Shown one piece after another: positions 23,791-62,730 of a stretch of DNA of 64,000 nucleotides. The DNA is from an uncultured Alphaproteobacteria bacterium (GTDB taxonomy: Bacteria; Pseudomonadota; Alphaproteobacteria; Rhodobacterales; Rhodobacteraceae), in assembly GCA_913051655.1 (NCBI GenBank), contig CAJXHI010000008.1:1-64000 (forward strand), given 5' to 3'. Under the pieces are notes generated by a model that had not been told where the DNA came from, made no database searches, and saw only the letters and a program-made list of their open reading frames with translations. Numbering within the stretch: the first letter of the stretch is position 1; each line of letters starts with the position of its first letter. The position numbers were made by a program, and so were the translations under genes.

Positions 23791-24170
23791 TCATCGATTA
23801 AGGATAATCCTTTTTAAAAATGAAAGAAAAAAAATCGCGTCAAAGACGCGGGTCCCCAATGGTATACCCAAATTCATCACGACCCGCTTGCAATATCTAC
23901 AACTTTTCTTGACGAAGTTTTGAAAGCGCAAAATCGATAATCTACTAGCTGCGGCCTCGCTAGTCTTAACATCGATAATTATGCCTCCGTAAGCTCCTTG
24001 ATCTCTCCAACCTTCAGCCAAGTTTGAATTTGCCATGCTGGTTACAAAGCATGGTTTATCCTTTTCGGTTGACATACTATTCACGTGGCAATGATTAATA
24101 GCAGCGATACCATCAACAAAATAAGAACGCCAATTCGGCTCAAAAATATAGATTAAGCCAAGTGTTACAA
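23791..24170 (-). pseudogene. TIGR03032/DUF4915-family protein fragment
   Basis: Minus frame reads FEPNWRSYFVDGIAAINHCHVNSMSTEKDKPCFVTSMANSNLAEGWRDQGAYGGIIIDVKTSEAA; family-like HxN...VTA...GWR...GGxxID pattern, no start and abrupt loss of similarity. Confidence 0.5.
23825..23850 (-). terminator. Rho-independent terminator
   Basis: Minus strand CGCGTC-TTT-GACGCG followed by ATTTTTTTTCTTTC. Confidence 0.75.
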
Positions 24171-25380
24171 TGCGATTAAATCGTGTTGCAAGGACTATTG
24201 GCTTATAGTCGATGACCCATAAATGATTAAATGAGGGTAGTTATCGGCTAGACGCTTTAACCTATAACACTCGTTCAAAAATTTTTCTTAACACGAGCTT
24301 TAAATGTGAAACGATGTAAAAATAAAAGATAACTTTAAAAAATATGTTGAGATGCTGCATAAGCATAAAGGCGAATTGACAAAGAGCAAATTTTCTTTCG
24401 TGCTATACCTTACACATTGAGCCAAAAGGATATCGCTATACCGAGTGCGTTTTGGTGGATAGAACAAACGATATCGCAGAACCTGTCTGAAAATAGTGAC
24501 GATTTGCGATAACGGTGCCAGTGGATACAAGGGCCCCAAGCTACAGTGCTGGTGATATTTTGTTTTGTAATCCCAAAACAACGCCGCAATTGGCTGACGA
24601 TGTGGTGATCCGCACAAAAAACTAAAGCCCGCATTTGTGAAGTCACTGATATTCAGCCAACTCAAAACCGTATTGACCCCGAATCACGTAGCTAAGTTAT
24701 TATTTCTGCGTTGAAATAAGTATGCCTGCGCTCGCAGAATTATGAAAAGGAGAAGCATACTGCAAAAATCTTGGCTCTTAACGCAACCGGATGACCGAAA
24801 TTGAGTATGCAGATTGGTTTTACATCCGAGATACAGATGACGAAGTTAATCTTGTCATTGACGGAGGCGGTCGCTCGACAAAGCATTTACACGGAAATTT
24901 TTTAAAAAAATGCTGAAATTAGCCGTATGCAGAAGGTTCTGAGGCTAAAAGTAGAGCATAAATATAGCTAGGCACGCAGTAGCACTGTAGCTGATTCACT
25001 CCGTTAACAAAATCCAAAGGCCTCTTAAGCACCACTTGTCATAAGTGGAAAGTGGTGTGTTTGCGACCGCATCGGCAGGTCAAGTTGCAGTATTTACATC
25101 ATTCAGCACGGAATAAGAGCACCCAGTACCGAAATAATAAGCAACGATTATAGAGGTGCAATAGACTCCAGCCCCGAAGTTTCGCTGCTACTATGAACCT
25201 AAACGGACCTGAATATAACACAGCACCATCAGCTTAAGGTGGAAACTATTGTTAAATCTACCAAGTGCAAATATCGCTAAAAAAACTAAAAAATTTGCTT
25301 TTCGACGATCTTCTGATCATCTGCGGGGATGCGACTAACGTTCAGGTGTAGAAGTTTTTGATATTTATCAATAGTTCACA

Positions 25381-27180: not shown

Positions 27181-27615
27181 TTGTCTGTAAATGAGCCCAA
27201 CAATGGAGTTCTGAGTGCGGAACGCTCTGAAAATTGGTGTGCATTTAAATTCGTGGAGTCAGCAACTGCAAGATCGGTCAGTAAGATATTCCGTAAACGT
27301 GATACCCTTCACAAACTCGTGGCTGAGCAAATCTATATGGCCAATAATCCGTCCTATGTTCCGACAAAATCTAAATGGGTCACTGGTATTGACGGAAATG
27401 TCCGCCAAGTTATGGTGCCCAAAAAACAAAAAAAATGGTGGGTGTTATTGCCAGATGGAAAGCTGCAAATAGCTGTTTATTGGAAGTCTAAACAAATAGA
27501 GTTTGAAGAAGGAAAAAATGCGATTGAAGTAGACAGCGCAAACGAATTAGTTCCAACGCTAGAAAGTATCAAGCAAAGTATTGACTTAGGCGACTTTGAT
27601 GTTTTTATCGCCTAG
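27181..27615 (+). CDS. Accessory protein resembling DUF6641 family
   Basis: LHKLVAEQIYMA...VPKKQKKWWVLLPDGKLQIAVYWKSKQIEFEEGKNAIEVDSANELVPTLESIKQSIDLGDFD; TTG start preceded by aaagga. Confidence 0.5.
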   Translation: MSVNEPNNGVLSAERSENWCAFKFVESATARSVSKIFRKRDTLHKLVAEQIYMANNPSYVPTKSKWVTGIDGNVRQVMVPKKQKKWWVLLPDGKLQIAVYWKSKQIEFEEGKNAIEVDSANELVPTLESIKQSIDLGDFDVFIA

Positions 27616-28126
27616 TTGATTTGTGAAAGATATGAAAATAAACACTCAGTTATAAAAAATCCAAACTTAACTTGGACTAAACTTACCTTTATCATGAACA
27701 CCCCTTTGCGGCATCGTGTCAATGACAGAAGCATTTATTGCAGATCTTTGGTTAGCTACTCTATTGCATACCCGCGTTAAATTTAACGTACATAGCCGCT
27801 GTAGCTGCAAAATAGCCCGATGTAACAGTCCCACGTCGAGCACTTTTGGTCAGTCGTATTAATAAAGGGAAATGTATAACGCATACCCATGCTCTACAAA
27901 GGGGTGTCAGCATATACTGTGATTATAAAAACTGTGTATTGTTATCTGGAACAGCATCCAGTTGTCTTGCTCGAGCAGTATGTATCACCATTACGGCAGT
28001 AACAGATTGAGTGATATTTGATTCTTCAATACCCATGTGCAAAAGTATTGCGACAGAAACTTGCTTGTTGTTATTCTATACGTGAAAGCTCTAGGTTAGT
28101 GTTGTTTAGGAGCGCTGAGTGGTGAA

Positions 28127-28726
28127 ATGATGGTCGCGCACTCTATATTTTCCCTGCGTGAGGAATTGCGTTTTTATGTGCGTCGGTATGCACCCGATAT
28201 AGACAGTTTTTGTGGGAAAGCGCTGATGGAAGATCATCAGACGGCATTTATTGCCCCACAGAGATTGAAAGGGACTGAAGCATTTTTAGCAACAGAGCTT
28301 TTAACTTCGGAGCTTTCAAGGCCAGTTGTGGAGGCGGTTCGTAGCGCGGTAAATGATGTGTGTTGGCGTCAAAGTTACGGTTTGGACGACGCTAATTTTG
28401 ACCAAGATTACCTTGATAATTATGGCTGGTTTAATTTAATTGCGCCCTCTGGGCCTTTTATCAGTGACAGCCTGAGGCTTTCGATAGGCTTTTGGGGACA
28501 GGGGCTTCACTATCCACACCATTGGCATGAACCGGAAGAAATTTACCTCACTTTAGGAGGCACAGCGATCTATATTTCTGAAGGCCGCGCGTCGGTCGAA
28601 GGTGGTCCCGGCACAACGATTTGTCATTATTCTAATCAATCACATGCTTTGGACTTTTCTAAAGCGCCACTTCTGGTGGCGGCGTTTTGGCGAGGAGGGG
28701 AATTAGAAGCGAAGCCTCGCCTCTGA
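28127..28726 (+). CDS. Cupin-fold DMSP lyase-like protein (DddQ/DddL-type)
   Basis: YPHHWHEPEEIYLTLGGTAIYISEGRASVEGGPGTTICHYSNQSHAL fits the HxxxE...Y...H metal/active-site layout; ~200 aa. Confidence 0.68.
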   Translation: MMVAHSIFSLREELRFYVRRYAPDIDSFCGKALMEDHQTAFIAPQRLKGTEAFLATELLTSELSRPVVEAVRSAVNDVCWRQSYGLDDANFDQDYLDNYGWFNLIAPSGPFISDSLRLSIGFWGQGLHYPHHWHEPEEIYLTLGGTAIYISEGRASVEGGPGTTICHYSNQSHALDFSKAPLLVAAFWRGGELEAKPRL

Positions 28727-29256: not shown

Positions 29257-29472
29257 TTGACACAAAACCAAGAATTTACTGAAGCTCATATTTCCGAAAT
29301 CGTTCAAATGGCATTGTCAGATCATGTCACATTTTCTGATATTGAGTTTGAATATGGTTTGAAAGAGCATGAAGTTGTGACCTTGATGCGTAAAACTTTG
29401 CGTAAAGGATCATATCGCAGTTGGCGCAAAAGAGTGGCTGCTTTTGGAAGTCGAAGAGAACATTACAAATGA
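29257..29472 (+). CDS. TIGR03643/DUF2805-family small protein
   Basis: MTQNQEFTEAHISEIVQMALSDHVTFSDIEFEYGLKEHEVVTLMRKTLRKGSYRSWRKRV. Confidence 0.8.
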   Translation: MTQNQEFTEAHISEIVQMALSDHVTFSDIEFEYGLKEHEVVTLMRKTLRKGSYRSWRKRVAAFGSRREHYK

Positions 29473-29570: not shown

Positions 29571-29975
29571 CTATCCTGGCGTTTCGAATTGACCCAAACA
29601 TATCAGGTACAGATAAACAGTACACAGTAATCCAACCCACCATAGACAGCTTCTGACCCAAGGAATACCGAGAAGGTAGCTGAAAAAATACAATACCCTT
29701 GTTATTACAAAAACAACCAAAACACTTACGGTTTCGGGAGTGCTTACCGATATTAGTACCAACGAAAACACAGGTGGTATTATGAGCAGGAGAGATGTAA
29801 CCGTGTTGTTGAGCGCTCTGATTGCTCTTTCAGCCATGCCGGAATATTCGATTCCATCTCTGGATCCGGCGAGCTTTTTAACTCCGTGTTGCTGTACAGA
29901 CAGAATGGACTGTAATACCAGCATGAAAGTAACCAGCAGGCAATATATTAAGAGAATTTTTAATTCCGTGTGCAT
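29571..29975 (-). CDS. MAPEG-family membrane protein
   Basis: MHTELKILLIYCLLVTFMLVLQSIL...GMAERAIRALNNTVTSLLLIIPP...RVLYFFSYLLGIPWVR; start reassigned to ATG at 29975. Confidence 0.8.
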   Translation of the reverse strand: MHTELKILLIYCLLVTFMLVLQSILSVQQHGVKKLAGSRDGIEYSGMAERAIRALNNTVTSLLLIIPPVFSLVLISVSTPETVSVLVVFVITRVLYFFSYLLGIPWVRSCLWWVGLLCTVYLYLICLGQFETPG

Positions 29976-30793
29976 TGTGATTACCTCTGTTTCGCTAAGG
30001 TGTATGGATCGACTTTCAGAATAAGCGCCTTGGGTTTTCAAATTTTATGATGATTTAAAACTAAACCAATTTGTTGCACGATCAATGAAATACGAAGCTT
30101 AGTGGCGTGTGCGGTGTCCAATAAATACTATTTACATGGTCATAACACGTCGCACATATGCAGCACACGCTGATCAGGATTAAATTTTAGATGATTTAGA
30201 TGACCTCGTGCAAGATAAACGCGAGGGCTGGAGAGCTAACGCGAGCAAACCGAGGCTTCGCCATTGAAGATATAAAAAGCGACTTACAAATGACTCGCTG
30301 GGGTTGAACTATTTGGATAGAGTATGAAAAATATTTTCAGAGGGAGAAGGTCTTGACGCGCTTATAGAAAATTCAAGCGTGGATGAAATTAAATTGGTAA
30401 CCGCACGTGTTATGGTTAATCAGAATTGGCAAGCAGCGAGTATCCACAATAGAGCTAGATTGCCACACCAGAAATAAGCTGAGGTGAGGAAAAAAACCAC
30501 TTAACGCTTGGGAAACTATCAAGTAGATCCGGCTCTCGCTGAATGTTTTTAATACCATTCGTACGGCCAACACGATATAGGTATTTGTGCAGATCAATTT
30601 AAGAAATAGACGCAAGTTGCGGCGACAGGTCTCACCTCCTGTATTCCATACATGTGTCAAGATTTTGTATGCTTGCATAGGTGAATCTTCCGTTACAAGT
30701 TTTGAATTTTCTTATGGTCAATTTTTGCAAAGCTGATGAAAAAGTTGAGTTCTACACTAAGCTACATTTTACGATAGATGAAAAGTGTCTGCT

Positions 30794-33030: not shown

Positions 33031-33489
33031 ATGAAAATTGTTCTTGTATATCCAGAAATCCCACAGAATACGGGATCAATCGGACGAACCTGTGTGGCGT
33101 TGGATCTAGAACTGATCCTTATAAAGCCATATGGATTTTCATTAGATGAAAGAAAAGTGTCGCGCTCAGGTACACGGTACTGGGGAGATGTCGCTCTTTC
33201 AGAATATGACACTTGGGAGGCGTTTTTGGAGGCGCGTTGCCCGACACATGATCAGCTCTATTTTTTTGAAGAGGATGGGCAGGAAAGCTTTTACAATCCA
33301 ATTTATCGTGAGGATGCCTATCTGATCTTTGGGCGCGAGAGCAGCGGTTTGCCGCACCAGATTTTGCGCGGTATGGAAGACAGAATATTTCACATTCCCA
33401 TGCGCAATAATGCTGTAAAATCGCTCAATCTGTCCAATGCGGCGACCGCAGCGATCTATCAGGCGTTACGAGCCCAATTTCAAAGTTAG
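33031..33489 (+). CDS. trmL: tRNA (cytidine(34)-2'-O)-methyltransferase
   Basis: VLVYPEIPQNTGSIGRTCVAL, LIFGRESSGLPHQIL, IPMRNNAVKSLNLSNAATAAIYQALR (SPOUT knot). Confidence 0.95.
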   Translation: MKIVLVYPEIPQNTGSIGRTCVALDLELILIKPYGFSLDERKVSRSGTRYWGDVALSEYDTWEAFLEARCPTHDQLYFFEEDGQESFYNPIYREDAYLIFGRESSGLPHQILRGMEDRIFHIPMRNNAVKSLNLSNAATAAIYQALRAQFQS

Positions 33490-33893
33490 GGTTTTGGCGG
33501 GATGAGATAATCTTTGTCAGATACCTTTTCAAGCCAATCGGCCACCTGCCCATTCTGCGCCTCTTGGATTGCGATATGGGTCATGAAATGCATTGGGCTT
33601 GCGCCGTGCCAATGTTCTTCGCCTGGTGCGATCCAAATTGTGTCGCCCGTGTTCATCTCTTTTGGTGTCTCACTGCGCAGCCCGATCAATCCTGTGCCGC
33701 TTACAATATAAAGAGTTTGACCAAGGGGATGTGTATGCCACGCCGTGCGTGCGCCGGGCTCAAAGCTTACCTTAAGCGCCCTTACGCACGCAGGCGCTGG
33801 TGCCTCAACGATGGGATCTTGCCAGACGCGCCCCGTGAACCAATCTGAATCGGCCAATTTTGTGGGGCGCTCAAAATATTTGTGAATGTGCAT
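33486..33893 (-). CDS. Cupin-domain protein
   Basis: GARTAWHTHPLGQTLYIVSGTGLI...TIWIAPGEEHWHGASP. Confidence 0.85.
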   Translation of the reverse strand: MHIHKYFERPTKLADSDWFTGRVWQDPIVEAPAPACVRALKVSFEPGARTAWHTHPLGQTLYIVSGTGLIGLRSETPKEMNTGDTIWIAPGEEHWHGASPMHFMTHIAIQEAQNGQVADWLEKVSDKDYLIPPKP

Positions 33894-33909: not shown

Positions 33910-34371
33910 TTAAAAAAATCGAGTCATTAGGGATGATTTACTTTCCAACCCTTGATGTTTAGCCTCTTTGCCAACTGGGATCTGCATTTCATAAACTCTC
34001 GGGTTAGGTGCGGAAATGCAAGGCTGGGCTTTTACAGCGGCATGCTGAAATTCGTCTTCTCTTTTGGGGACTGCCATTAAAAAAATATTCACCGCCTCGC
34101 GTAGGTCGCAGGTGGCCATGTTCCAGACAAACCACCCTGTTTCTTTTGTAATCACAACAGTATATGCGCTCTCCCCAGAAAAAAGTTGATTCGCGGGAAA
34201 TATCATCGCAGGTGGATCAAAAGCCAAATTTGTCCACTGACTAAAGGGGACACGATCGGTGGTGCCGTTTTTTGAAATCGTTGAAACCCGCCCAATTGGT
34301 CGGGGGACAGCGCAGGATTTGAATAGCGAACCCGGGAGTGGGCAGGATTCGCTTTGCGGGACATAGTGCAT
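33910..34371 (-). pseudogene. Flavin reductase-family (DIM6/NTAB) protein, C-terminally truncated
   Basis: MHYVPQSE...AVPRPIGRVSTISKNGTTDRVPFSQW...GWFVWNMATCDLREAVN; similarity ends near NPRVYEMQI and the ORF then stops early. Confidence 0.6.
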
Positions 34372-34467: not shown

Positions 34468-35358
34468 TCACAACTCGGGCCAGTAAAGGCGCATGGGATT
34501 GGTAACCAAGAGTTTTTCCTGCTGCTGAACGGTGCGGGCAATGCGTGGAATATAATCCACCAGCTCACCGTCATCGGGCATATGGGACTTCATATTGGGA
34601 TGTGGCCAATCCGTTCCCCATAAAACACGCTCCTCAAATCGATCAACGATGGCCTGATAAAAGGGCAAAACATCATCATAAGGTGGTCCCGCAATGGTCA
34701 ACCGTTCTGGGCAGGTGACTTTGCTCCAGATCGAGGAATTGTTTTCCATAAGAGATATAAATCTCTTAAAATCATTGTGATATATTCCATTTTTGATGTC
34801 TGGGCGCCCGATGTGATCGATGACGATGATCCCCGGCAACTCCTGTAAAAAGGGTTCTAAATCTTCCAGATCTTTGGCTTCGAAATAGACAACGGTGGAC
34901 CATCCAAAGTCTTGTATCTTCTCAGCAATCTCGAGAAATACCGATTGTGGTGTTGCGTCTACCAGTCGTTTGACAAAGTTAAACCGCACGCCGCGCACAC
35001 CGGCATCATGCATGTCGCTTAGCTCTTCTTTTGTGATATCCTTTCCAACGCTTGCAATACCGCGCGCCATACCGCCTGAGGCACGGCATGCATCGACCAT
35101 CGCCTGGTTGTCTTTGCCATGGCATGTGGCTTGAACGACGACATTTCGTGTAAATCCTAAATGATCGCGCAGTTCGAAAAGTTTCTCTTTGCTTGCATTA
35201 CAGGGGGTGTATTTGCGCTCAGTTGCAAACGGAAATTCGGGTGTGGGGCCGAAGACATGACAATGCGCATCCACAGCTCCTTTAGGCAATTGAAAATCGG
35301 GTGCTTTGGGATCAGCGTGAAAGACAAGCCAATCTGGGTCCATGTGTTGCGGGGTCAT
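34468..35358 (-). CDS. ligI: 2-pyrone-4,6-dicarboxylate hydrolase (amidohydrolase_2)
   Basis: LPKGAVDAHCHVFGPTPEFPFATERKYTPCNASKEKLFELRDHLGFTRNVVVQATCHG; WGTDWPHPNMK. Confidence 0.93.
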   Translation of the reverse strand: MTPQHMDPDWLVFHADPKAPDFQLPKGAVDAHCHVFGPTPEFPFATERKYTPCNASKEKLFELRDHLGFTRNVVVQATCHGKDNQAMVDACRASGGMARGIASVGKDITKEELSDMHDAGVRGVRFNFVKRLVDATPQSVFLEIAEKIQDFGWSTVVYFEAKDLEDLEPFLQELPGIIVIDHIGRPDIKNGIYHNDFKRFISLMENNSSIWSKVTCPERLTIAGPPYDDVLPFYQAIVDRFEERVLWGTDWPHPNMKSHMPDDGELVDYIPRIARTVQQQEKLLVTNPMRLYWPEL

Positions 35359-36410
35359 GCGAAAATCTCTCCGTCCATCAATTTGCGCGCCGTTCTTAAA
35401 ATGGCGGCGGTGTTTATGTTGTCCTGATTGTCAAGTCCTGCGACCACGGTCATTTCTCCGCTGGGGTGTTCGATGGACAGATATCTTTCTGTGCCGCTGC
35501 CCCGCTGAGCGAGATCAAATGCGGTACTCTCTGGGATCAAGCAGGCAGTTGCAACGCTCACTGCGCCCAGCACTCCGATCGATTTATGGCAGCGATGGGG
35601 AATGAAGGTTCGGGTTGAAATTGCGCCGCTGTTTTCCGCGCGTGATACCATAGTCATTTTGGGCACAGTTTTTTTTGTCACATCCCCAAGGTTCATGATT
35701 GGGCCACAGGCAAGACGCAGCGCCTCGAGCTTTTGACGCAGTTCTGTGTTGGCCTCAAGTTCTAAGGATGTTTCATGACCGTTGATCCCGATATCCTCTG
35801 CACGCAGCACAACGCAGGGCATTCCGTTGTCAATCATTGTAACATCAATACCATTGATGGTGTCTTTGGCCTGACCACTGGGCAAAAGCGACCCGCAGCT
35901 GGAACCTGCCGTGTCCTGAAAGGTGAGCGCAATAGGAGCCGCCGTCCCTGGGACGCCATCAATGCTTGCGCCGCCTTCTTCGTTGATCTCTCCATTTGGA
36001 GTTTCAATGCGCGCCACCGCCATTTGCCCCGTATTTTCCATGAAAATACGGACCTCGGTCGTTGGGCTTTGTGTTTCTACAAGGCCACGCGCGATGGCAA
36101 AGGGACCAACACCTGCAAGAAGATTGCCGCAGTTTTGTGCGTCAGACACTACCGGTGCATCAACAGAGACCTGCAAAAAAAGATAATCGACATCGACCGC
36201 AGGTAGATCGGACTTTCGCACAACGGCGATTTTTGAGGTCAAGGGATCGCCGCCCCCCATACCATCTATTTGGCGCGGGTCGGGAGAGCCCATGGCGCGG
36301 ACCAAAAATGCATCACGCAGAGCTTGATTTTCTGGAAGATCTTCGGCCAGAAAATACCCCCCTTTGGATGTGCCCCCGCGCATCCACATGCAGCGCACAC
36401 CCTTAGACAT
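35355..36410 (-). CDS. ligU: 4-oxalomesaconate tautomerase (PrpF family)
   Basis: [40 protein letters not shown]; next to ligI/ligK. Confidence 0.9.
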
Positions 36411-37095
36411 ATTTCAAGCCCTGTTTGGCAAGTCGAGGGCGCATGTTATAAAGGTCTAGTCCAAGTTCACCGGCTTCAAACCGCGCGCGTTTGTCGTCTT
36501 CGTTGGCAACGCGGGCTTCAGCTTGGGCGAGTACATCTTTAGCTTCTTCGCGACGCACAACACAAACCCCATCATCATCTGCCAGAACTATATCGCCCGG
36601 GTGGATCAATGCATTCGCGCAGATGATCGGCACATTTACAGATCCAAGTGTTTCTTTAATGGTGCCTTGGGCACAGATGGCTTTGGACCAGACAGGAAAT
36701 CTCATCTCTTTAAGGTCTGCGACATCGCGCACCCCTGCATCAATGATTAATCCCCGACAGCCTCGAGCCAATGAAGAGGTCGCAAGCAAATCTCCAAAAT
36801 ACCCCGCATTTGACGAGTTAATTGTGCCTAACACCAAAATATCCCCTGCCTGCAATTGTTCGATGGCTACATGGATCATCCAGTTGTCACATGGGGGTGC
36901 AAGGATGGTCACAGCGGATCCCGCAATGCGTGCACCCGGATAGATGGGGCGCATGTAATCGGCTAAAAGCCCTTTGCGTCCTTGTGCTTCATGAACTGTG
37001 GAAACGCCGCAAGTGGCTAGTTCGTCAATGATCTTTTGATCTTCGCGCGCAATGTTTTGAACGACTAGTCCTGTTGTGCCTGGCTGAATGTTCAT
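36403..37095 (-). CDS. ligK: 4-carboxy-4-hydroxy-2-oxoadipate aldolase (RraA-like fold)
   Basis: [56 protein letters not shown]. Confidence 0.92.
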
Positions 37096-37850
37096 TCCAA
37101 TTCGTCCACGGTTCTTGGAAAGATCGTTTCAAATCCTTCCGCATATTTCGCTGCGCGGCCACCAGCCTGCCCACCCGAATTTCGTCGGAAGTGGTTGGCA
37201 CGATTTTCGGCGACGTTTTTATAGAAATGCCATAGGTGTTCTTGTCCCTGCATACATTGGATGGCGGCCCATTTTTTATCCCAAACACCTGAAATGTCCA
37301 AAAACACGGTTGGTTTCCAATTCATTTGTTCTGTTTGGTGGGGCTCAAAGAGGTAAAGTTGTGGTGCACTTAAAACTTTCTGACCAGGTTTATGACCCCA
37401 GGCCTGTGCGATCATCCTGCATTCCAAGGCAAAGGTCGTTGTATTCATATGATCCGTGTTATATGGATCCCATTTTGAATGGGACATCAAGAATTTTGGC
37501 TGAACTTCGCGGATCACATCGACCATACGATCCTGCGTTTCGCGCCCCAGATCCAGTGGGTAATCCCCTACATCAAAAAACCTGATGTCATTCACACCCA
37601 AGGCTGCCGCGGCATTTTCGGCTTCTACGCGCCGTGAAGCTTTGACTTTATGGAGCGTCATACCCTCTTCTTTCCAGAGCTTTGCGCTTTCACCGCGTTC
37701 GCCATAAGAAAGGCAAACGACCGTTACTTCATAGCCCTTTGATTGATGAAGCGCGATTGCTCCACCTGCACGCCATACAAAATCAGCTGAATGCGCGCTG
37801 ATCACGAGGGCAGTTTTTTTGTCTGACATAGCTATTTCCACCATTTGCAA
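37092..37850 (-). CDS. galB: 4-oxalomesaconate hydratase, PIG-L/LmbE-type (GalB-like)
   Basis: [40 protein letters not shown]; gene context. Confidence 0.88.
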
Positions 37851-37937
37851 AATTTTTACAACTTATATGCTAAATTGTTCCCAAGTCCTATTTCGAAATT
37901 TGCAGCGTTAAAAATGAACGGCTAAAGGCGGTGCAAT

Positions 37938-39070
37938 ATGAACAAACTTCACAACATAAACAGATGCGTTTTTCCAATGGCATTGCGCTTGGGGTCAATT
38001 TCCGACGCTGCGTATCGCTACAATTTATCTCAACCCGCAGCCACCCAAGCGCTTGCCCGTCTTAAGGAAGAAGTGGGCTCCACCTTGGTCAATTGATATC
38101 GGCCGTATTTTGGCGAGACGGAATGTGGTGGATTGTTTCGGCGCCGCGTGATTACGGCGCTCGCTCAGCCGAGAACGGGTGCGAGATATTTGCGCTCCGC
38201 ATCAGCAAAAGCCACGCGGCCCATCGGCAAATTGGAAAAATTGCTGACTGAAGCTCAATTGCGCACTTTGATTACCGCTGCAAACACCGGCAGTTTTATG
38301 CCTGCCGCGCGCCAATTGGGATTGTCACAACCTACGATCCACCGCTCAGCGACCGGATTAGAGGAGCTTGCGAAAACTACCCTCTTTTACGCCTGATCTT
38401 TGGGTGTGGCGCTAACACCTGTTGCCAGCGCTTTTGCCGAACAAGTAAAGCGCGCTAACGCCAAATTTTGCCAAGGCATAGAAGAGATTATGCATATTTT
38501 TGGAAGTGGCGAGGAGAGTTTTATTTTTGGCAGCCTACCTGTGGCACGCACGATGATCTTGCGCAAAGCTGCCAAGGCGATGATCAAAGAAGATAGACCG
38601 ATCTAAATCAGCGTCATGGATAGGCGCTACATGCAGCTTCTGCGCTCGCTCAGGGAAGAGATTTAGACTGTATGATCGGCGCCCTTTGTTTTCAGCCCAA
38701 GCGATGAAATTGCACAAGAAGTATTGTTTCAGGATAGGTTGGTGATTGTGGCCCATCCGTCCCACCCGCTGGCAGTGCGACGCAACATTCCTCTAGACCA
38801 CACGCTTTCCTATCCTTGGATTGCACCACCTAAAGAAACCCTTGCCGTACAGTAACTAATTGAAACACTTGGTATCGAACGTCTCGAAAAGACATCTGTG
38901 CGTGTCGTGTCATCCTCTGTTGCTTTTCTTCAAGGGATTTTGAACAAGGGGCCTTATATCTCTGTCGTCTCTAGACATTGGACTTACCTGTAGAAGGGGT
39001 TGCCGGCCCACATCCAGTCAGGCCAAGTTCGTTGAGTTTTTGCAGCAGCTCAGCAAAGATGTAGGTAAGA
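37938..39070 (+). pseudogene. LysR-family regulator with two N-terminal HTH repeats, multiply disrupted
   Basis: ...GSISDAAYRYNLSQPAATQALARLKEEVGSTLVN*... and ...TGSFMPAARQLGLSQPTIHRSATGLEELAKTTLFYA*SLGVALTPVASAFAEQ...; several in-frame stops plus a frameshift near 38660. Confidence 0.85.
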
Positions 39071-39194
39071 CGTAATTCGATATCTTACGCTTAGATAGAT
39101 TTTCTCAATACTCAAAGGAACATTTCAATTGGCCTATTACCGATCAAACTGGTAATGAGATAAAGCGCTTCTTGGGTGCCTGCTGGAGGAACAG

Positions 39195-41403
<2,209 letters not shown>

Positions 41404-41457
41404 GCGGATGTGATATGTGCGCTCCGGCTTTTTGAAGCCGGCAGTCGTATATGTCTT

Positions 41458-42447
41458 TTAACAATACCGTTCAGGTCCGACCCATTGTTTGGCGGAATAT
41501 CGGTCCCCATGTGCCCAACCGACCGGAAGCACATCATCAATCCGTGCCGCGATTTCAGCTGTGATCGTAAAATCGGCACCTTGCGCCAGTTCCTGTAAAT
41601 GGGCGATGTGGCGCGTTCCTGGGATCGCGGCGATATGATCCCCCTGTTGAAGCACCCAAGCAATCGCAAGACCCGCTGCCGAAATCGATAAATCTGCAGC
41701 CAAGCTACGAAATTTCACGTTAAATTTGAGGTTTTCGCTGAGGTTGGGTTCCATAAAGCGGGGGTTGTTCACGAGAAAATCCATTCTTTCAGCTGTTACG
41801 CGATTATGCGGGCGATCCGTCAAAAGAGACCTGCCCACTGGGGAAAAGGCTACAAATGTGGCGCCAATGTCTTTGCAGGCTTGGATGACTCCCAGTTCTG
41901 GTCCGCGGGTGGAGAGAGAATATTCCGACTGCACAGCCGCAACAGGATGGACCGCATGGGCGCGCCGCAAAGAAGAGGGCGCGATTTCGGAAAACCCGAC
42001 CGCCTTTACCTTGCCTGCTTTGACAAAACCTGCGAGCGCTTCGCTTACCTCTTCAATCTCAACCCGCGTGTCGCGCCGATGCACGTAATAAAGATCTATT
42101 GCCTCTATGTTGAGCCGGCGCAGACTTTCGTGCAGAGATTGCGTCATATGCTCTTTGGAATTGTTAAAGCGATATTCTGGATCGCGCGTGATGCCCACTT
42201 TGGTCGCTATTGTAAACGGGCAGGGGCTGCCGCGTGCCTTTAGCCACCCCCCAATCACATTTTCAGACCGCCCCATACCATAGACATTTGCCGTATCAAT
42301 ATGCGTGATGCCCATCTCCAAACACGCATCCAGAACTTTTGCAGAGTTTTGATCATAGGCAGGCCCATAGAAATCCGTAAATGACATGGCACCATAGCCA
42401 AGCGCATTCACCTTTGGGCCGTGTTGACCAAGCTGGCGTAGGTTCAT
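41458..42447 (-). CDS. Aldo/keto reductase
   Basis: MNLRQLGQHGPKVNALGYGAMSFTDFYGP; DTANVYGMGRSENVIGGWLK; start reassigned from 42528. Confidence 0.9.
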   Translation of the reverse strand: MNLRQLGQHGPKVNALGYGAMSFTDFYGPAYDQNSAKVLDACLEMGITHIDTANVYGMGRSENVIGGWLKARGSPCPFTIATKVGITRDPEYRFNNSKEHMTQSLHESLRRLNIEAIDLYYVHRRDTRVEIEEVSEALAGFVKAGKVKAVGFSEIAPSSLRRAHAVHPVAAVQSEYSLSTRGPELGVIQACKDIGATFVAFSPVGRSLLTDRPHNRVTAERMDFLVNNPRFMEPNLSENLKFNVKFRSLAADLSISAAGLAIAWVLQQGDHIAAIPGTRHIAHLQELAQGADFTITAEIAARIDDVLPVGWAHGDRYSAKQWVGPERYC

Positions 42448-42599
42448 TGTTAATCTCTCCTTGCTGGGGGCTGAGCTGTCAAAAAATTTGTCTTGATCTG
42501 TTCTTATAACATGTGTTGGCTTGTGCAAGAGGGGCTGAGCAAAGGTTCATTGCACCAAGGCACCTGTCATTGAAACAAAATTGGGAATGATTGTCGTTA

Positions 42600-45500
42600 A
42601 TGAAAGTCTTTTCTGCCAAAAACCGACCGGTGCATTTAGGGCCTTATCCCGTGGAAAGGTTAAAACGTACTTCAAAGGTTGATCTGTCATCCGTTCCAGA
42701 CATGGCGCCCTTGACCTTTCGAAGAACCGAGATGCCTGAAAATATCGTCAATGCGATGGGCGAATATCAGGCGATGCTGGATGCGATCCGTGATGGTTTG
42801 ATCAATAACATAGAAGCGGTTATTCCCCAAGATCCTCGAATTCGCGCAGATCACCTAAAGGCCTTTGGATATTTCAACGATGCAGCGATGATCGGCATTT
42901 GTGCCCTGCCAGACGTGGCCCTTTTGGACCAACCAATTCTAAACCCCGATATTGATCGATTGGCCGACGCGCTGCGTACGCGGCAGACCAAAACGCTTGC
43001 CTCTGGGATTGATGTGATCATGGCTGATTTGAAGGATTCAATGGAAGCGCCCCCGAGCACGATAGAGGACCACACCCACGCCGTTGTGTTTTTGTATGAC
43101 AATCCAAGAGCGTTTCAGCAGAATGAAGCGGGATGCGATTGGCTTTGTGATGCGCATGCGCATCGAGCCTCACTTCGCGCAAGTGAGACAACCTCTGTAT
43201 TGGCTAATTACATTCGCCTTTTAGGATTTGATGCCAAATCTCATTCTGCTTCTGCGAGTGATGTGAATCTCAATTCCTTGGCTGTCGCGGCAGGTCTTGT
43301 GTGGGTGAAGGATGGTGCATTAGTTGCGCCCTTTGTCAGGCACAATTTTGGCCTTGGCGCGATTACCTGTAGGATGGACCTTGCCGTTGATCTTCCATTG
43401 GCGCCACCCTCTCAACAGACATGGCTAAGCGCCCAATGGGCTTCATGGTGGCTTGGGACAGGAGGCAACAAAACTGTTTGGAATAACGATCCATATAAAC
43501 GCCGGCGCTTTGTAGATGGGCCACATCCTTTTGAAACTTTAAAGCGTGCGGAAAAACCCACCACATTTATTGACGAGGAGCACGTGGCGCGGGTGCCCAA
43601 ACGCACCGACATGTTTGCCCGTGCCCAATTCGGGGATATGGGAAAAACGCTTCAAGAAGGCGCCAAGGGAGGTTATTATGCTCGTAAATCTGCGCCCTCG
43701 TTCGCGCAGCGGCGTGCCTTGGGCGCTTTTGTTCTTTTGCAGGATGGGCTGCCGAATCCTGACGGTACGCGTCCGACGGATTCAAAGCGAAATGCGGATA
43801 ACCTTAAGGCTACGTCCTACTTTTTGGGTGTTGATGCTGTGGGGTTATCACGTTGTCCAGATTGGGCGTGGTATTCGCATGATGCAACAGGAGAAAAAAT
43901 TGATCCCCCCCATCCAAACGCCATTTCTATGATCGTTGATCAGGGATTTGAGACGATGGAAGGCGCCTCTGGCGATGATTGGATTTCCGTGGCGCAATCT
44001 ATGCGGGCATATCTAAGATTTTCGTTATTGGGTGGCGTAATAGCGAAGCAAATTCGCAACCTTGGATATAAGGCAAAAGCACACAGTGTGATGGATGGGG
44101 ATGTCTTGCAGCCGCCATTGTTGCTTCTTTCGGGTCTTGGAGAGGTCAGTCGGATCGGCGAAGTGATCCTGAATCCTTATCTGGGTCCTCGACTGAAATC
44201 GGGTATTGTGACGACGGATATACCGATGACTCACGACAAACCAATTGATTTTGGTCTGCAGAATTTCTGCGAAACCTGCAACAAATGTGCGCGTGAGTGT
44301 CCTTCAGGTGCGATTACAGCCGGACCCAAACTGATGTTCAATGGCTATGAGATTTGGAAGTCTGATAGTCAGAAATGCGCTACCTACAGGATTACAACAG
44401 AGGGCGGGGCAATGTGTGGGCGCTGTATGAAAACATGCCCTTGGAATTTGGAAGGTCTGTTTGCCGAAGCACCGTTTCGTTGGGCCGCATCAAACCTTCC
44501 AAAGCTTGCAAAGCCCTTGGCAAAACTTGATGATATGGTCGGTCGGGGTGAGTTGAACGATGTCAAAAAATGGTGGTGGGATATCGAACTTTACGAAGAC
44601 GGCGGCTATAAGCCTGCAAGAAAACCCATCAATCGACGCGCGTTGAGCAAAAATCTTGACCTCAAATACGAAGATCAGACGCTCGCTGTTTATCCCGCTC
44701 ATCTCGCGCCACATCCGTGGCCCTATCCATTTATCATGGATCGCGAAAAAGGGATTGAAGCTTATGAGAAGATGATTAGCGCCGAGGAGTATCAAAAACA
44801 GCTTTCAAGTGGCAGTTTAAGCCCTGTGCATCGGTATTCTGCATCAGGAACATCACCAGTTTTGCGGGTAGAAGTCAGCCATGTTGAAAAAATGACTGAT
44901 GCAATTACCAAATATGAATTTAAATCGCTTGACGGAAAGGAATTACCTGCGTGGAGCGCAGGCGCGCATCTTGACGTTTTAGTGGCCCCTGAATTTCTGC
45001 GGCAATATTCCATGTCAGGCGATCCTGCCAATAGCGAGCGATATCAAATTGGCGTTCTAAGAGAAGACGGTGGTCGGGGGGGCTCAAAAACGATGCACCG
45101 GATTTTCAGACCTGGACGCAAGGTGTTTATCTCAAAACCCATCAACCATTTTGAGCTAGCGGAGTGCGCATCAAAAACCTTTCTTATGGGGGGTGGGATT
45201 GGGGTCACACCCATGATCGCTTTTGCTCATCAGCTTTTTGCGAAGGAAAAAGAATTTGAGCTTCATTACTCTGCACGTCAGGAAAATAGCGCAGGATACC
45301 TACTTGATTTGGCCGCAGTTCCGTGGGCTGACCGAGTGAAATATCACTTTAGTTCGCAAGGGCAATATGCTGATTTTACAAGGATTTTAAAGGGCTATCG
45401 TAAAGATTGGCACGTCTATGCTTGCGGCCCGCATCGTTATATGGAAGGCGTCATTGAGGCAGCTTTGGCAGAGGGTTTCCCAGAAGATGCAACACACGTC

Positions 45501-45806
45501 GAATATTTTTCCACCCCCGAAATACCTGAATACGAAAACCACGCCTTTACGCTGAAATTAGAAAAATCAGATAAAGAGATAGCAGTCCCTGCGGATAAGG
45601 ACGCTGCGACTGTTTTGGTAGAACATGGATATGCAGTGGATTTAAAATGCTCGGATGGTATTTGCGGTGTTTGTCAGTGTGGCCTTTTATATGGAGAGGT
45701 GGAGCATCGCGATTTTGTCCTGTCAAAAAAGCAGCGGCAATCAACCATAATCCTCTGCCAAAGTCGTGCCGCAAAGGCGGGGGGCATTTTGCATATTGAT
45801 TTGTGA
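42600..45806 (+). CDS. rdhA: Self-sufficient reductive dehalogenase (RdhA-FMN/NAD(P)H reductase-2Fe-2S fusion, BhbA/NpRdhA type)
   Basis: CETCNKCARECPSGAI and KCATYRITTEGGAMCGRCMKTCPWN 4Fe-4S motifs; LRQYSMSGDPANSERYQIGVLRE...GGGIGVTPMIAF reductase; CSDGICGVCQCG...C plant-type 2Fe-2S. Confidence 0.92.
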   Translation: MKVFSAKNRPVHLGPYPVERLKRTSKVDLSSVPDMAPLTFRRTEMPENIVNAMGEYQAMLDAIRDGLINNIEAVIPQDPRIRADHLKAFGYFNDAAMIGICALPDVALLDQPILNPDIDRLADALRTRQTKTLASGIDVIMADLKDSMEAPPSTIEDHTHAVVFLYDNPRAFQQNEAGCDWLCDAHAHRASLRASETTSVLANYIRLLGFDAKSHSASASDVNLNSLAVAAGLVWVKDGALVAPFVRHNFGLGAITCRMDLAVDLPLAPPSQQTWLSAQWASWWLGTGGNKTVWNNDPYKRRRFVDGPHPFETLKRAEKPTTFIDEEHVARVPKRTDMFARAQFGDMGKTLQEGAKGGYYARKSAPSFAQRRALGAFVLLQDGLPNPDGTRPTDSKRNADNLKATSYFLGVDAVGLSRCPDWAWYSHDATGEKIDPPHPNAISMIVDQGFETMEGASGDDWISVAQSMRAYLRFSLLGGVIAKQIRNLGYKAKAHSVMDGDVLQPPLLLLSGLGEVSRIGEVILNPYLGPRLKSGIVTTDIPMTHDKPIDFGLQNFCETCNKCARECPSGAITAGPKLMFNGYEIWKSDSQKCATYRITTEGGAMCGRCMKTCPWNLEGLFAEAPFRWAASNLPKLAKPLAKLDDMVGRGELNDVKKWWWDIELYEDGGYKPARKPINRRALSKNLDLKYEDQTLAVYPAHLAPHPWPYPFIMDREKGIEAYEKMISAEEYQKQLSSGSLSPVHRYSASGTSPVLRVEVSHVEKMTDAITKYEFKSLDGKELPAWSAGAHLDVLVAPEFLRQYSMSGDPANSERYQIGVLREDGGRGGSKTMHRIFRPGRKVFISKPINHFELAECASKTFLMGGGIGVTPMIAFAHQLFAKEKEFELHYSARQENSAGYLLDLAAVPWADRVKYHFSSQGQYADFTRILKGYRKDWHVYACGPHRYMEGVIEAALAEGFPEDATHVEYFSTPEIPEYENHAFTLKLEKSDKEIAVPADKDAATVLVEHGYAVDLKCSDGICGVCQCGLLYGEVEHRDFVLSKKQRQSTIILCQSRAAKAGGILHIDL

Positions 45807-49234: not shown

Positions 49235-49593
49235 TTAGATTCCGATTTAATGTTTAAAGTTTTGGTCTGTTCCGACGCTTTTCACATGCCCAAACGGGAA
49301 TTGCACGCAAAAGATCCAAAATATGACCAAAATGCTTCTTAAGATCCAATCATTTTTTAAAGGGATCATCGCGAATGCAATCTGGATACTATTGGATCTG
49401 ACTTGTTTCTGTGGGGGCAGCATTTTGCATCAGTTTAATTTATCGCTTAACGCACAAAATCATATAAAAATAGTGATGGTAGTCGCGATGCTGTATGTGG
49501 TTGGTTTCGGTCCACTGCATTATTCGAAGTCTTTTCCGAAAAAATGATGTGGAGCGACGATATATCACGTCCGACGTCAAATTACACGTAGCT

Positions 49594-53824: not shown

Positions 53825-54835
53825 GCGTAATTTTCGGAATTTCTGTTAAGTTTACACAGATTTCACGCAAAAAATAGTTAAAACTGCTTAATATTTCGTT
53901 AAATGGGCTGGAAATACTTATTTTATGTAAAATATAATTCAAGGAGATAAAATAATGGTTCCATTTCCAAACAATGCGTTTTAGGCGCGAATATCATTCG
54001 AAAATTCTGCAGGGACGGATGGGTGCGAGTTTGTTGAGTTCGCCCACCCTGAGTAGGAAGTGATTTAGGATAAATTTTCGAAGAGGGGCTTTTATTGACT
54101 GAGATTGACCAGTTAAAAGTATGGAGGTGTGGCAGCAGCCGGCTATTGTCAAGATCGTTAATGTGAAAGGCGACAACTTATCAGCGGTATTCGTCAAAGG
54201 CCAGGGACCATTTGCGTCGTCGATGTCTTGGCATATTTGTAATTTCGAATATGTGTCTAAATATGCTCTTTAAAGGGGATGCAGCAAATACTGTCGAGGC
54301 AAAATATCCTCACGCTTCTGAAATTTGCGATATCAGTGGATCATTGACATATTTCATTGATCAAACTTAGGCAAACACCGCTTAAGAACAAGAGTAAACC
54401 GCGCTATTATCGCTGATACCTTAAGGCGTTGGATCTTATTAACCTGATCATCTTACTTACAACGTTTTCCGTTGGAGTATTACCAACTGATTTTCGGTTT
54501 ACGTCGATTAGTTAAATTTTAGCAAAATCAGATTTTTGATATCGAGGGACAATTAACGGCTCTCTTCAGCCGTGCGCCAAGATCGCCCAACGCTGAAATT
54601 CGCACTCCCATCAACGGAGATCGGTGTGAAGCGAGGGAAATTCTTACCTATCTCAAAAAATATGAGATGAGGTTAATCAATATATCGCGGTGGGTTAACA
54701 GCAGCTTTAAAACAAAATGGGTAGGAAGTCTTAAATTAGTATTTTATTTCTACGCAACTTGATACGTATTTCAAGGCTTTTTATAAGTTAATAGAGGAAC
54801 AACAAATCGCGAATTGTGAATCGCTGCCGGCTCAA

Positions 54836-57325: not shown

Positions 57326-58207
57326 ATGCGCACATATCCTGATAGATACTTGTTCGTTTTTCTAATCTTTTATCGTTCTACTTTACAATATTTAGTCTTA
57401 CTGAAATAGCAAAACATCGCCGATTTAGTGAAGTGAAATCGAATGAGGCGTTTCTATGCAATGTAGAGAAATGAGTGAGAGGCTGGAAGTGAAGATGTTT
57501 TACTCTCTTATTTTCAGGATTATGGGAACAATCGCATAAGACTGGTTCGGGTACCCTAAGGATCTACCGACGATTACTGTTGAGGGACAGGGCACGGTGA
57601 CATTGACTCTAAATATCATGCGATTGGACTCGAGACTTAAAGAAGAAGGCAAAACTGCGTTTAGCACAAGGGCATCTACCGTGCTCAAATATTCGGAACT
57701 TTTTTACAATCTAAGTCTGTTGATCTAGATGAAAAAGCTTTTGTGTCGATGAATGTCTCAATTTTTGTGACAATTTAGATGAACATTTTCAGGTCCGAGA
57801 GATCCGAGGTTTTTTAGCTAGTTCGAGCTTACTGGTCGGTTCAAGAGCTTTAGACCATGTGGCAGAATTACTATATCTGGCTCGGAATTCCAGGGTTATT
57901 GAGAGTGGTGGTTCATATTTTGATAAAAAACCGCGCACTGACCTGGAAATGCAGACCCGTCAAAAGTATGCAAAATGCCCTAGGGAAAGCAGACCTTTTT
58001 AAAAAAAGGGCTGGCATCTGAATGCGCGCTGTGGTGATGATACGCGAGCTTGTTGCTTCGCAGGGCTTGCCAATTTTAGCCTCTGCGGCAAATATGAATA
58101 GAGCAATTTCAAATACGATCTATTCTGGTGAAACAACTTTTACCAAGAGAGCCAGTATTAAATATGAAATTAAGTCGGCTAAGGAGGTCGATCCAAGTCT
58201 GACCGGA

Positions 58208-59509: not shown

Positions 59510-59794
59510 GAAGCATATCTCCAATTTACTGCTGTGTAACACTTTAGTCTGTCTTGTCGGCGAGGACAACTCTATCTCCTCTCGGCCCAGCCTCAAGGTG
59601 TCAAAAAGATTAAATTTTCAGAATACTAAGGACTTTCAAAAATTCGTTTTTGGATTATCCGACAGGTTGGTTTTTATTCTTAGGCGATGTTCATTCGCGA
59701 TGCTAGCTTGGCATATTGGAGGTTTTATCCCCAATGCACCCATAGCTCTTTAGATTTAATCTGGTTTCGAATGGTCTGTTCCCGAAGCGGTAAA

Positions 59795-60169
59795 TTATTT
59801 TGATCGATAAAATCGGTCGGTTGCGGCGACTTTGACAAATATATATGCTTGCAATCCTGTTTCCTCCGAAATCTTTTCAACTTCATCCGGGGCTGGGGTC
59901 ACCTGACAACATGAAACTATATCATGTCTGAAGCGACCATACAGTAGCGGCAAGTAGTGATGTCGGCTTGAAATATCGCCTTGCAGATATCCGATTGGCA
60001 AATCAGGACGGCCGCTGTTGCAACTATGAGTGACTAAAGGCAACGCGACTTGATCAAGGCTTTGCAGGCGAAAAGCCTTTGGCCTTTTGTCAAGGATTTC
60101 CGGAGTAAATTCTATGGACCTTTCTCTGGGATCCGTTGGACACAGATTATAGAAAAGCGCTTCATACAT
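59795..60169 (-). CDS. Hypothetical protein (124 aa)
   Basis: ORF with plausible coding composition; family not recognised. Confidence 0.35.
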   Translation of the reverse strand: MYEALFYNLCPTDPRERSIEFTPEILDKRPKAFRLQSLDQVALPLVTHSCNSGRPDLPIGYLQGDISSRHHYLPLLYGRFRHDIVSCCQVTPAPDEVEKISEETGLQAYIFVKVAATDRFYRSK

Positions 60170-61146
60170 AAGGAGTATCGTTTGCAGTATTCGTATGGAT
60201 TCAATGTACTTTGAGAATTTTTAAAAATTTAAATCAAACATGTTTTCAGTGCGATTTCTCGGTTTCTGTGTAATAGTTCGTACAGTTCTTAAGCGGAGCA
60301 CATCCCTGCGTCGCGTAAGGATCCGCTTGGTCAAGAAAAACTAAGGAAATGTCAGGGCGGTTATTAGAAATCAAATTGTCACTGTTAAAAACACAAAGGG
60401 TCCATTGGCAAGCCTTTCTTTGAAACGTAAGGTTTTGTTGCCATAGCAGTATGATTGCCTGAAAAGTTTATTCTAATGGCAAATAATTTATTCACCAAGA
60501 TGCTCTAAAATCGCTCTGTATCCTTGAGAAGAAACTTGTGACTTCTGCCAGAAGGAATGCTGGCTAGGTCTTCGCAACAAAGACCTAAAAAAATCTGTGC
60601 TGTTTTGTCGTAAAGAAGACAGTATTAGTACGGTTTTACACTAGAATTAAACGGCTTGAACTCGGAAGCCCAGTCATGCTCTTTCTCGAATCCTGCTGCA
60701 AGAAAAATCACTGAAAACATTGTTTTTAGTGACAAAAAATTGCGGCCGCCGACTAGCGGCTTTTACGCAAAAAAATTGCGGTATGGACTGTCATGCTTTT
60801 CGCCAGCTTATCCAGAATATCATGCACATCTCTGGAACTGACATTTTTCTCGATTGCTGAAAGGGTCTGTGCACATCTTTTCTCTCTGTATCGTCACCGG
60901 ATTAAACAGTTAAATTTGAAAACAAAAATTTAAAGTGAAACCCTACTTATTACTCGTATTCAATGACGCATCCATTAAAAAAGAAAGAGCAAATAAGTAA
61001 GGAAAACACAAGAGGCGGCCATCGGGAATATCAACAAATAGGGTGTGCAATTACAGACTACACAAATCATAGATATTTTCCTATAGTGGCGTAGGTTGTT
61101 ATAAGCAAACATCTACAGGCTATTAATTGAGGTAAAGGAAAAAACC

Positions 61147-61617
61147 ATGCGCTGTCCATTTTGCGGAAATGTTGACACTCAGGTAAAAGATTCGCGTCCC
61201 GCGGAAGACCATGTAGCCATTCGCCGTAGACGGTTTTGTGCGGACTGTGGTGGGCGTTTTACAACCTATGAACGCGTGCAGTTACGCGATCTAGTAGTTG
61301 TCAAATCGAATGGTCGGCGCGAAGATTTCGATCGCGATAAACTTGAGCGCTCCATCCGAATCGCACTCCAAAAACGCCCCATAGAACATGATCGGATGGA
61401 AAAGATGATTTCTGGTATTGTGCGACGTCTGGAAAGTCTTGGGGAAACGGACATTGCTTCGAAAATGATCGGTGAAATTGTGATGGAATCCCTAGCGCGC
61501 ATAGACACGGTTGCCTATGTCAGATTTGCCAGTGTATACAAAAATTTCCAAGCCGCTGATGACTTTGATAAATTTGTCAGCGAACTCAGACCACCTGTTC
61601 CAGGCGAAGAAGAATAG
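61147..61617 (+). CDS. nrdR: Transcriptional repressor NrdR
   Basis: [45 protein letters not shown] + ATP-cone. Confidence 0.97.
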
Positions 61618-61626
61618 CCATTTTCA

Positions 61627-62730
61627 ATGATTGAGGATCTCAGGTTCATGTCCTTGGCTTTGGCGCTTGGTCGGCGCGGCTTTGGACGTACCTGGCCAAA
61701 TCCCAGCGTCGGGTGCGTGATTGTGCGTGATGGACAGATTGTGGGTCGAGGGCGCACGGGAGATGGCGGTCGTCCACATGCCGAGATTGTGGCCCTGAAA
61801 CAAGCCGGGACACATGCTGAAGGGGCTACGGCTTACGTGACCTTAGAGCCGTGTTCACATTTTGGGAAAACGCCGCCGTGCTCTCAGGCACTGATAAAGG
61901 CAGGCATTGATCGTGTTGTTGGCGCGATGGATGATAGGGATCCACGCGTTAATGGCCAAGGCTTTGAGATGCTGCGCAAAGCTGGCGTAAAGGTCGTCAC
62001 GGGTATTGCGCGGGAAGAAGCCGAAGAAGATCATCGGGGTTTTTTCAACCGTCTTCTGAAAAATCGCCCATTCGTCACGTTAAAAATGGCGACTAGTTTC
62101 GATGGGCGTATCGCCACCGCGAGTGGCAAAAGTCAGTGGATCACAGCTCCACCCGCACGACGTGTTGTGCATGCATTTCGCGCCCGACATGATGCAGTCA
62201 TGATCGGCGGGAGAACGGCGCGCAAAGACAACCCTATGCTCAATGTCCGTGACCTTGGCATTGATCACAAAACTGTACGTGTAATTGTATCGCGCAAATT
62301 GGATATGCCTGAAAATAGCGCATTAGCCGAAAGCATCAAAGAGTTGCCGCTCTGGTTGTGCCATGGACCTGATGCGCCTGAAGAGCGCCTTCAGCGTTGG
62401 GTCGCACTAGGAGCAAAACTTATACCGTGCCGGCTAAAGGCACAAATGATCGACCTGGTGCATGCGATGCAAGGTCTTGCTGAACACGGTCTTACGCGGG
62501 TGTTTTGTGAAGGTGGAGGTACGCTTGCTGCCTCTCTCATCGGCGCACATTGCGTTGATGAATTGATCGGGTTTAACGCGGGGCTTTTGATTGGCGCCGA
62601 AGGGCAACCTTCTATCGGCACACTAGGTATTGAAAATCTCTCGGAAGCGCCGAATTTCAAATTAAAGAGTGTCCAGAAAATTGGTCCGGATATAATGCAC
62701 GTCTGGCAAAGCCAGACCCATTTTATTTAG
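61627..62730 (+). CDS. ribD: Bifunctional riboflavin biosynthesis deaminase/reductase
   Basis: TWPNPSVGCVIVRDG; PHAEIVAL; TLEPCSHFGKTPPC; FVTLKMATSFDGRIAT. Confidence 0.96.
   Translation: MIEDLRFMSLALALGRRGFGRTWPNPSVGCVIVRDGQIVGRGRTGDGGRPHAEIVALKQAGTHAEGATAYVTLEPCSHFGKTPPCSQALIKAGIDRVVGAMDDRDPRVNGQGFEMLRKAGVKVVTGIAREEAEEDHRGFFNRLLKNRPFVTLKMATSFDGRIATASGKSQWITAPPARRVVHAFRARHDAVMIGGRTARKDNPMLNVRDLGIDHKTVRVIVSRKLDMPENSALAESIKELPLWLCHGPDAPEERLQRWVALGAKLIPCRLKAQMIDLVHAMQGLAEHGLTRVFCEGGGTLAASLIGAHCVDELIGFNAGLLIGAEGQPSIGTLGIENLSEAPNFKLKSVQKIGPDIMHVWQSQTHFI

Follow-up and report, generated by a model that had tools for sequence, protein, structure and literature searches.

The cupin gene studied here, in a window comprising the whole 64,000-nt stretch of DNA analyzed, is an intact member of the known DddQ family that comes from a less-studied side branch. 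In our view, its likely product is a functional cupin lyase of the DddQ type, which is predicted to split algal DMSP into DMS and acrylate. This reading is supported by a predicted fold like that of DddQ, a complete set of catalytic residues, the placement in the DddQ clade, the intact frame, and the concentration of substitutions at third codon positions. Weighing against it, and included in that overall judgment, are catalytic residues that do not discriminate between substrates, an identity of only 31 to 38% to characterized DddQs, the high Km that DddQ has for DMSP (22 mM), and the missing MDR dehydrogenase gene.

Gene, protein, and family assignment

Translation from the ATG start gives an uninterrupted 199-aa protein (Table 1). 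As the preliminary description had claimed, it carries the cupin pattern of DMSP lyases, with HHWHEPEEIYLTLGGTAIYISEG followed downstream by the His of cupin motif 2. The profile comparison proposed there also turned out positive: PF16867 (DMSP_lyase) matched residues 54 to 184 over profile positions 37 to 162 of 162 with 62.1 bits, compared to a Pfam gathering cutoff of 27 bits. None of the NCBIfam models matched the 199-aa protein. A weak candidate ribosome-binding site precedes the start codon; signals in the promoter scan were at or below the shuffle level, and Rfam returned no match.

Among solved structures, DddQ enzymes were the only strong sequence matches of the protein. The five best PDB matches obtained with phmmer were all DddQ (E values of 2.7e-27 to 2.7e-19; best score, 98.7 bits), and the solved DddK and DddY enzymes were matched only marginally (E values of 0.25 to 0.51). 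The AlphaFold (AF2) model, built with eight relatives, had a mean pLDDT of 96.3 and displays the DddQ fold of N-terminal helices and a C-terminal cupin barrel. Likewise, six DddQ chains ranked first in the Foldseek comparison of this model (TM scores of 0.88 to 0.91), and the next cupin fold followed at a TM score of 0.45.

Table 1. Positions of the cupin gene, its sequence elements, and neighboring features in the window
Feature	Position	Strand	Basis
DUF4915 gene remnant (profile positions 107-197 of 316)	23791..24240	-	Profile match in flank
DUF6641 small gene, intact-looking	27181-27615		Profile match
Possible ribosome-binding site AGGAG, 14 nt before ATG (weak)	28108..28112	+	Inferred from sequence
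DddQ-clade DMSP lyase (cupin), 199 aa, intact	28127..28726	+	Translation, Pfam, phmmer, AF2 model
Cupin motif 1, YPHHWHEPEEIY: Y129, H132, H134, E138, Y140	28511..28546	+	Alignment to 4la2, column table
His173 of cupin motif 2, equivalent to RlDddQ His163 (metal ligand)	28643..28645	+	Alignment, column table
DUF2805 small gene, intact-looking	29257-29472		Profile match
MAPEG small gene, intact-looking	29571-30041		Profile match
LysE-exporter remnant, aa 135-197 of 200	49341..49529	+	Comparison with G006

Phylogenetic placement was assessed in a maximum-likelihood tree of 62 rows, from which DddL and DddW reference sequences were left out. The closest neighbor of the window protein was its orthologue in G006, the Caspian MAG casp-alpha6, which belongs to the same genus as the window genome (support, 100/94). 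These two proteins formed a trio with a protein of an uncultured Neomegalonema (L006; support, 100/98), and the trio fell into a seven-row branch together with Limibaculum (L007) and other Alphaproteobacteria (93/81). Identity to the window protein was 55% for the G006 orthologue and 57% for the Neomegalonema protein. The sister of this branch is a 15-row clade containing RnDddQII, RlDddQ, and RpDddQ (100/98), and the whole DddQ clade of 22 rows, with all three solved DddQs in it, received a support of 100/93. An alternative to the pairing of the window and G006 proteins, with the Neomegalonema protein as the partner instead, was marginally rejected (p-AU, 0.046), as was a tree in which L011, a more distant row, became the partner of the 15-row clade and the branch of the window protein was excluded (p-AU, 0.037). 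The branching inside the DddQ clade is not firmly resolved, as one alternative had a p-AU of 0.099. We found no report of a characterized enzyme from the seven-row branch.

Judged by tree, predicted fold, and residues, the window protein is thus a member of the DddQ clade, located on a side branch next to the solved DddQs. The DMSP-lyase cupin call made previously therefore stands, and its assignment to a "DddQ/DddL type" of unresolved subfamily is sharpened to the DddQ clade by the tree, the fold, and the PDB matches. This extends DddQ to a side branch common to this genus, Neomegalonema, and Limibaculum, the members of which may be missed by strict DddQ cutoffs in surveys of DMS genes.

Active-site residues and proposed reaction

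Tyr120, His123, His125, Glu129, Tyr131, and His163 lie in the active site of RlDddQ and are essential (PMC4437653). In the alignment, all six are unchanged in the window protein, the first five corresponding to Y129, H132, H134, E138, and Y140. However, the same six recur in all but a few of the 62 family proteins, including paralogues of unproven function far from DddQ. Because they are kept family-wide, paralogous branches included, they cannot discriminate between substrates; conservation of the motif supports lyase chemistry rather than a particular substrate and, alone, is no proof of DMSP cleavage.

In the proposed reaction, H132, H134, E138, and H173 would coordinate a divalent metal that binds the carboxylate of DMSP (or DMSOP), and Y140, aided by Y129, would abstract the alpha proton. 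The ensuing beta-elimination would release DMS (or DMSO) and acrylate. The acrylate would then be processed downstream; a crotonyl-CoA carboxylase/reductase is encoded beside dmdA in the host genome.

DMSP-related genes in the host genome

The host genome assembly (2.72 Mb, 84% complete) encodes DddP (880 bits; cutoff, 600) and two DmdA-family proteins (552 and 545 bits; cutoff, 410). One of the dmdA genes is adjoined by the crotonyl-CoA carboxylase/reductase gene (542 bits; cutoff, 379), and no protein in the host genome scored above the cutoff of the AcuI family. Judging from this gene content, DMSP is probably both demethylated and cleaved in this organism, and the presence of DddP and DmdA makes a DMSP-related role of the window gene plausible. 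The MDR028 dehydrogenase is absent near the window gene, and its best match in this 84% complete assembly had an identity of 33%. Two further cupins were observed in the host genome. A second long PF16867 protein (contig C35, L001 288-998) sits on a very long branch outside the DddQ clade, and a short cupin on contig C70 (L003 1402-1818) gave a weak match to PF16867 (31 bits) and a better one to generic Cupin_2.

Genomic location

The DNA flanking the gene is AT rich (36 to 44% GC) and thinly coding. The gene itself has a GC content of approximately 48% (56, 44, and 42% at the three codon positions), which is close to that of nearby core genes. The earlier placement of the gene in AT-rich accessory DNA consequently applies to the flanks but not to the gene. 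Similarly, the "eroded region" described there does contain a DUF4915 remnant, but the intact-looking DUF6641, DUF2805, and MAPEG genes are found in it as well.

From 30.8 to 62 kb, the window is largely collinear with contig 27 of G006, and most proteins are 66 to 96% identical. In G006, the cupin gene lies between a sugar kinase gene and an intact LysE exporter gene. At the counterpart of this site, the window contains no cupin and most of LysE is missing. The window cupin gene is instead solitary at 28 kb, outside the approximately 30-kb syntenic block. Since the G006 cupin site is deleted in the window, it looks like either the gene was relocated, in the lineage of the window or in that of G006, or a second copy survived selectively. 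The window gene would accordingly represent a genus-level gene that lost or left its former neighbors. Differences between the window gene and its G006 orthologue amounted to 0.36, 0.27, and 0.59 at the three codon positions. This concentration of substitutions at third positions is the pattern of purifying selection; synonymous sites are saturated, and dN/dS is therefore unusable.

Several other genes of the window were also noted. A 1,071-aa protein (42591-45806, + strand) matched the reductive dehalogenase model TIGR02486 with 175 bits (cutoff, 160) and carries a fused flavin/2Fe-2S reductase part, as in the self-sufficient, respiration-independent type of dehalogenase. It is adjoined by a probable aromatic 4,5-cleavage pathway (34468-42528) with genes for a LigI-like amidohydrolase, a PrpF-type isomerase, an RraA-type aldolase, a PIG-L hydratase, a LysR regulator, a LigB dioxygenase, and an aldo/keto reductase. 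Together, these genes suggest the breakdown of halogenated hydroxybenzoates. Beside the aromatic pathway, a second small cupin (33486-33893, - strand) matched the (R)-mandelonitrile lyase model NF049940 with 178 bits (cutoff, 140). Genes at six loci are intact in G006 but carry frameshifts or other breaks in the window (37938-39069, 33922-34371, 53955-54678, 57447-58183, 59737-60637, and 61126-61733), the LysR regulator being one example of a broken gene, and this reflects either genome decay or sequence errors in the MAG.

Gene neighborhoods of DddQ-clade relatives

Neighborhoods were counted for DddQ-clade members with enough flanking sequence. In eight of these (L006, L007, L065, L069, L070, L071, L102, and L107), an MDR dehydrogenase gene lies directly beside the cupin gene, a linkage already known for dddQ of R. 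pomeroyi and R. nubinhibens (PMC3338564), which is characteristic of dddQ but no strict requirement. A GbcA-like Rieske oxygenase is encoded nearby in six of the eight (L007, L065, L069, L071, L102, and L107). Most of the Rieske-containing clusters also encode a SoxA/GcvT-type dehydrogenase, RpiR regulators, and MR/MLE enzymes, in combinations that differ from one cluster to another. The MR/MLE proteins relate to cis-3-hydroxyproline dehydratase, although the three tested scored 312 to 397 bits and thus remained under the 500-bit cutoff. Judging from their predicted contents, the clusters may serve N-methyl betaine breakdown. Unusual members of the clade are not the only ones with this context, because the relative nearest to RlDddQ (72% identity) is the one in L065.

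DddQ has been reported to have a Km of 22 mM for DMSP (PMC5395565) and to be more efficient with DMSOP (PMC10686828). Taken together with the betaine-demethylation-like clusters, these properties could mean that DMSP is neither the sole nor the original substrate. One could speculate that the DddQ clade, including the side branch, arose within a betaine-breakdown pathway, that DMSP cleavage was secondary, and that solitary copies left the pathway and specialized on DMSP or DMSOP; we regard this scenario as rather unlikely. Nevertheless, the neighborhoods of the relatives provide a testable lead on the poor affinity of DddQ for DMSP.

Alternative explanations

A related explanation, which we consider possible but clearly the less probable one, is that the window gene encodes a DMSP-lyase-like cupin with another betaine-type natural substrate, so that DMSP cleavage would be at most a side activity. 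The chemistry, metal-assisted proton abstraction and elimination, would stay the same. This explanation is favored by the MDR- and Rieske-linked relatives, by the Km for DMSP, and by the observation that the MDR gene clustered with dddQ in R. nubinhibens did not bring back resistance to acrylate (PMC3338564). However, dddQ mutants make less DMS, with decreases of 97% in R. pomeroyi and 20% in R. nubinhibens (PMC5395565). Furthermore, the same MDR/Rieske-type cluster in G006 (L120) holds no cupin, and the window gene itself lies outside such clusters in a genome that has DddP and DmdA.

The preliminary description had instead proposed lateral acquisition, and recent arrival of the dddQ gene on a mobile element would agree with its solitary position outside the syntenic block. 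It would also agree with the identity to the G006 orthologue, which is lower than that of most flanking genes (67 to 96%) and no higher than that to Neomegalonema. The integrase remnant reported near the gene could not be found, as PF00589 had no match at an E value of ≤1 anywhere on the contig of the window, and among stop-to-stop fragments of the flank, none of the larger ones matched an integrase in Pfam or PHROGs. Phage records contained no relative of the protein, and plasmid records contained relatives at approximately 30% identity only. The only flanking repeat, of 17 nt, was rejected as chance level, since 20 of 100 shuffles equaled the match count of its core. Neither an integrase nor meaningful flanking repeats thus mark the gene as mobile-element cargo, its GC content resembles that of core genes, and the tree joins it to a same-genus orthologue. 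Lateral acquisition is therefore unsupported at this level; the gene was probably not recently acquired from another species, and we judge transfer on a mobile element improbable. More improbable still is a decaying, nonfunctional relic with a frame that is open by chance. Such decay would fit the window genes that are broken relative to G006 and a DddQ-like homologue in the same-genus genome G003 (L013, G003:C41:12595-12987), which has three internal stops and is apparently a pseudogene. The full length of the window gene, the retention of every catalytic residue, the third-position bias, and the confidently predicted fold all argue against it. A working DddQ-type lyase remains the explanation that we prefer.

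Comparison with characterized cupin lyases

The cupin lyases DddK and DddY share the cupin metal site with the window protein but match it marginally in sequence, and the DddY fold reached a TM score of 0.54. DddQ of Ruegeria pomeroyi (SPO1596; PDB 5cu1) belongs to the same clade and has a similar fold (TM score, 0.89), but it is 31% identical and is linked to the MDR028 gene (PMC3338564), which is absent beside the window gene. DddQ of Ruegeria lacuscaerulensis (RlDddQ; PDB 4la2/5jso) is 36% identical, and each of its essential residues aligns without change; unlike the window gene, its close relative L065 sits in an MDR/Rieske/MR-MLE cluster. DddQ of Roseovarius nubinhibens (RnDddQII; PDB 4b29) differs in its identity of 38% over the core and in its position in the clade, the window protein belonging to the sister branch. 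Nonetheless, it is the best PDB sequence match of the window protein and shares with it the six catalytic residues and a closely similar fold (TM score, 0.91; rmsd, 1.4).
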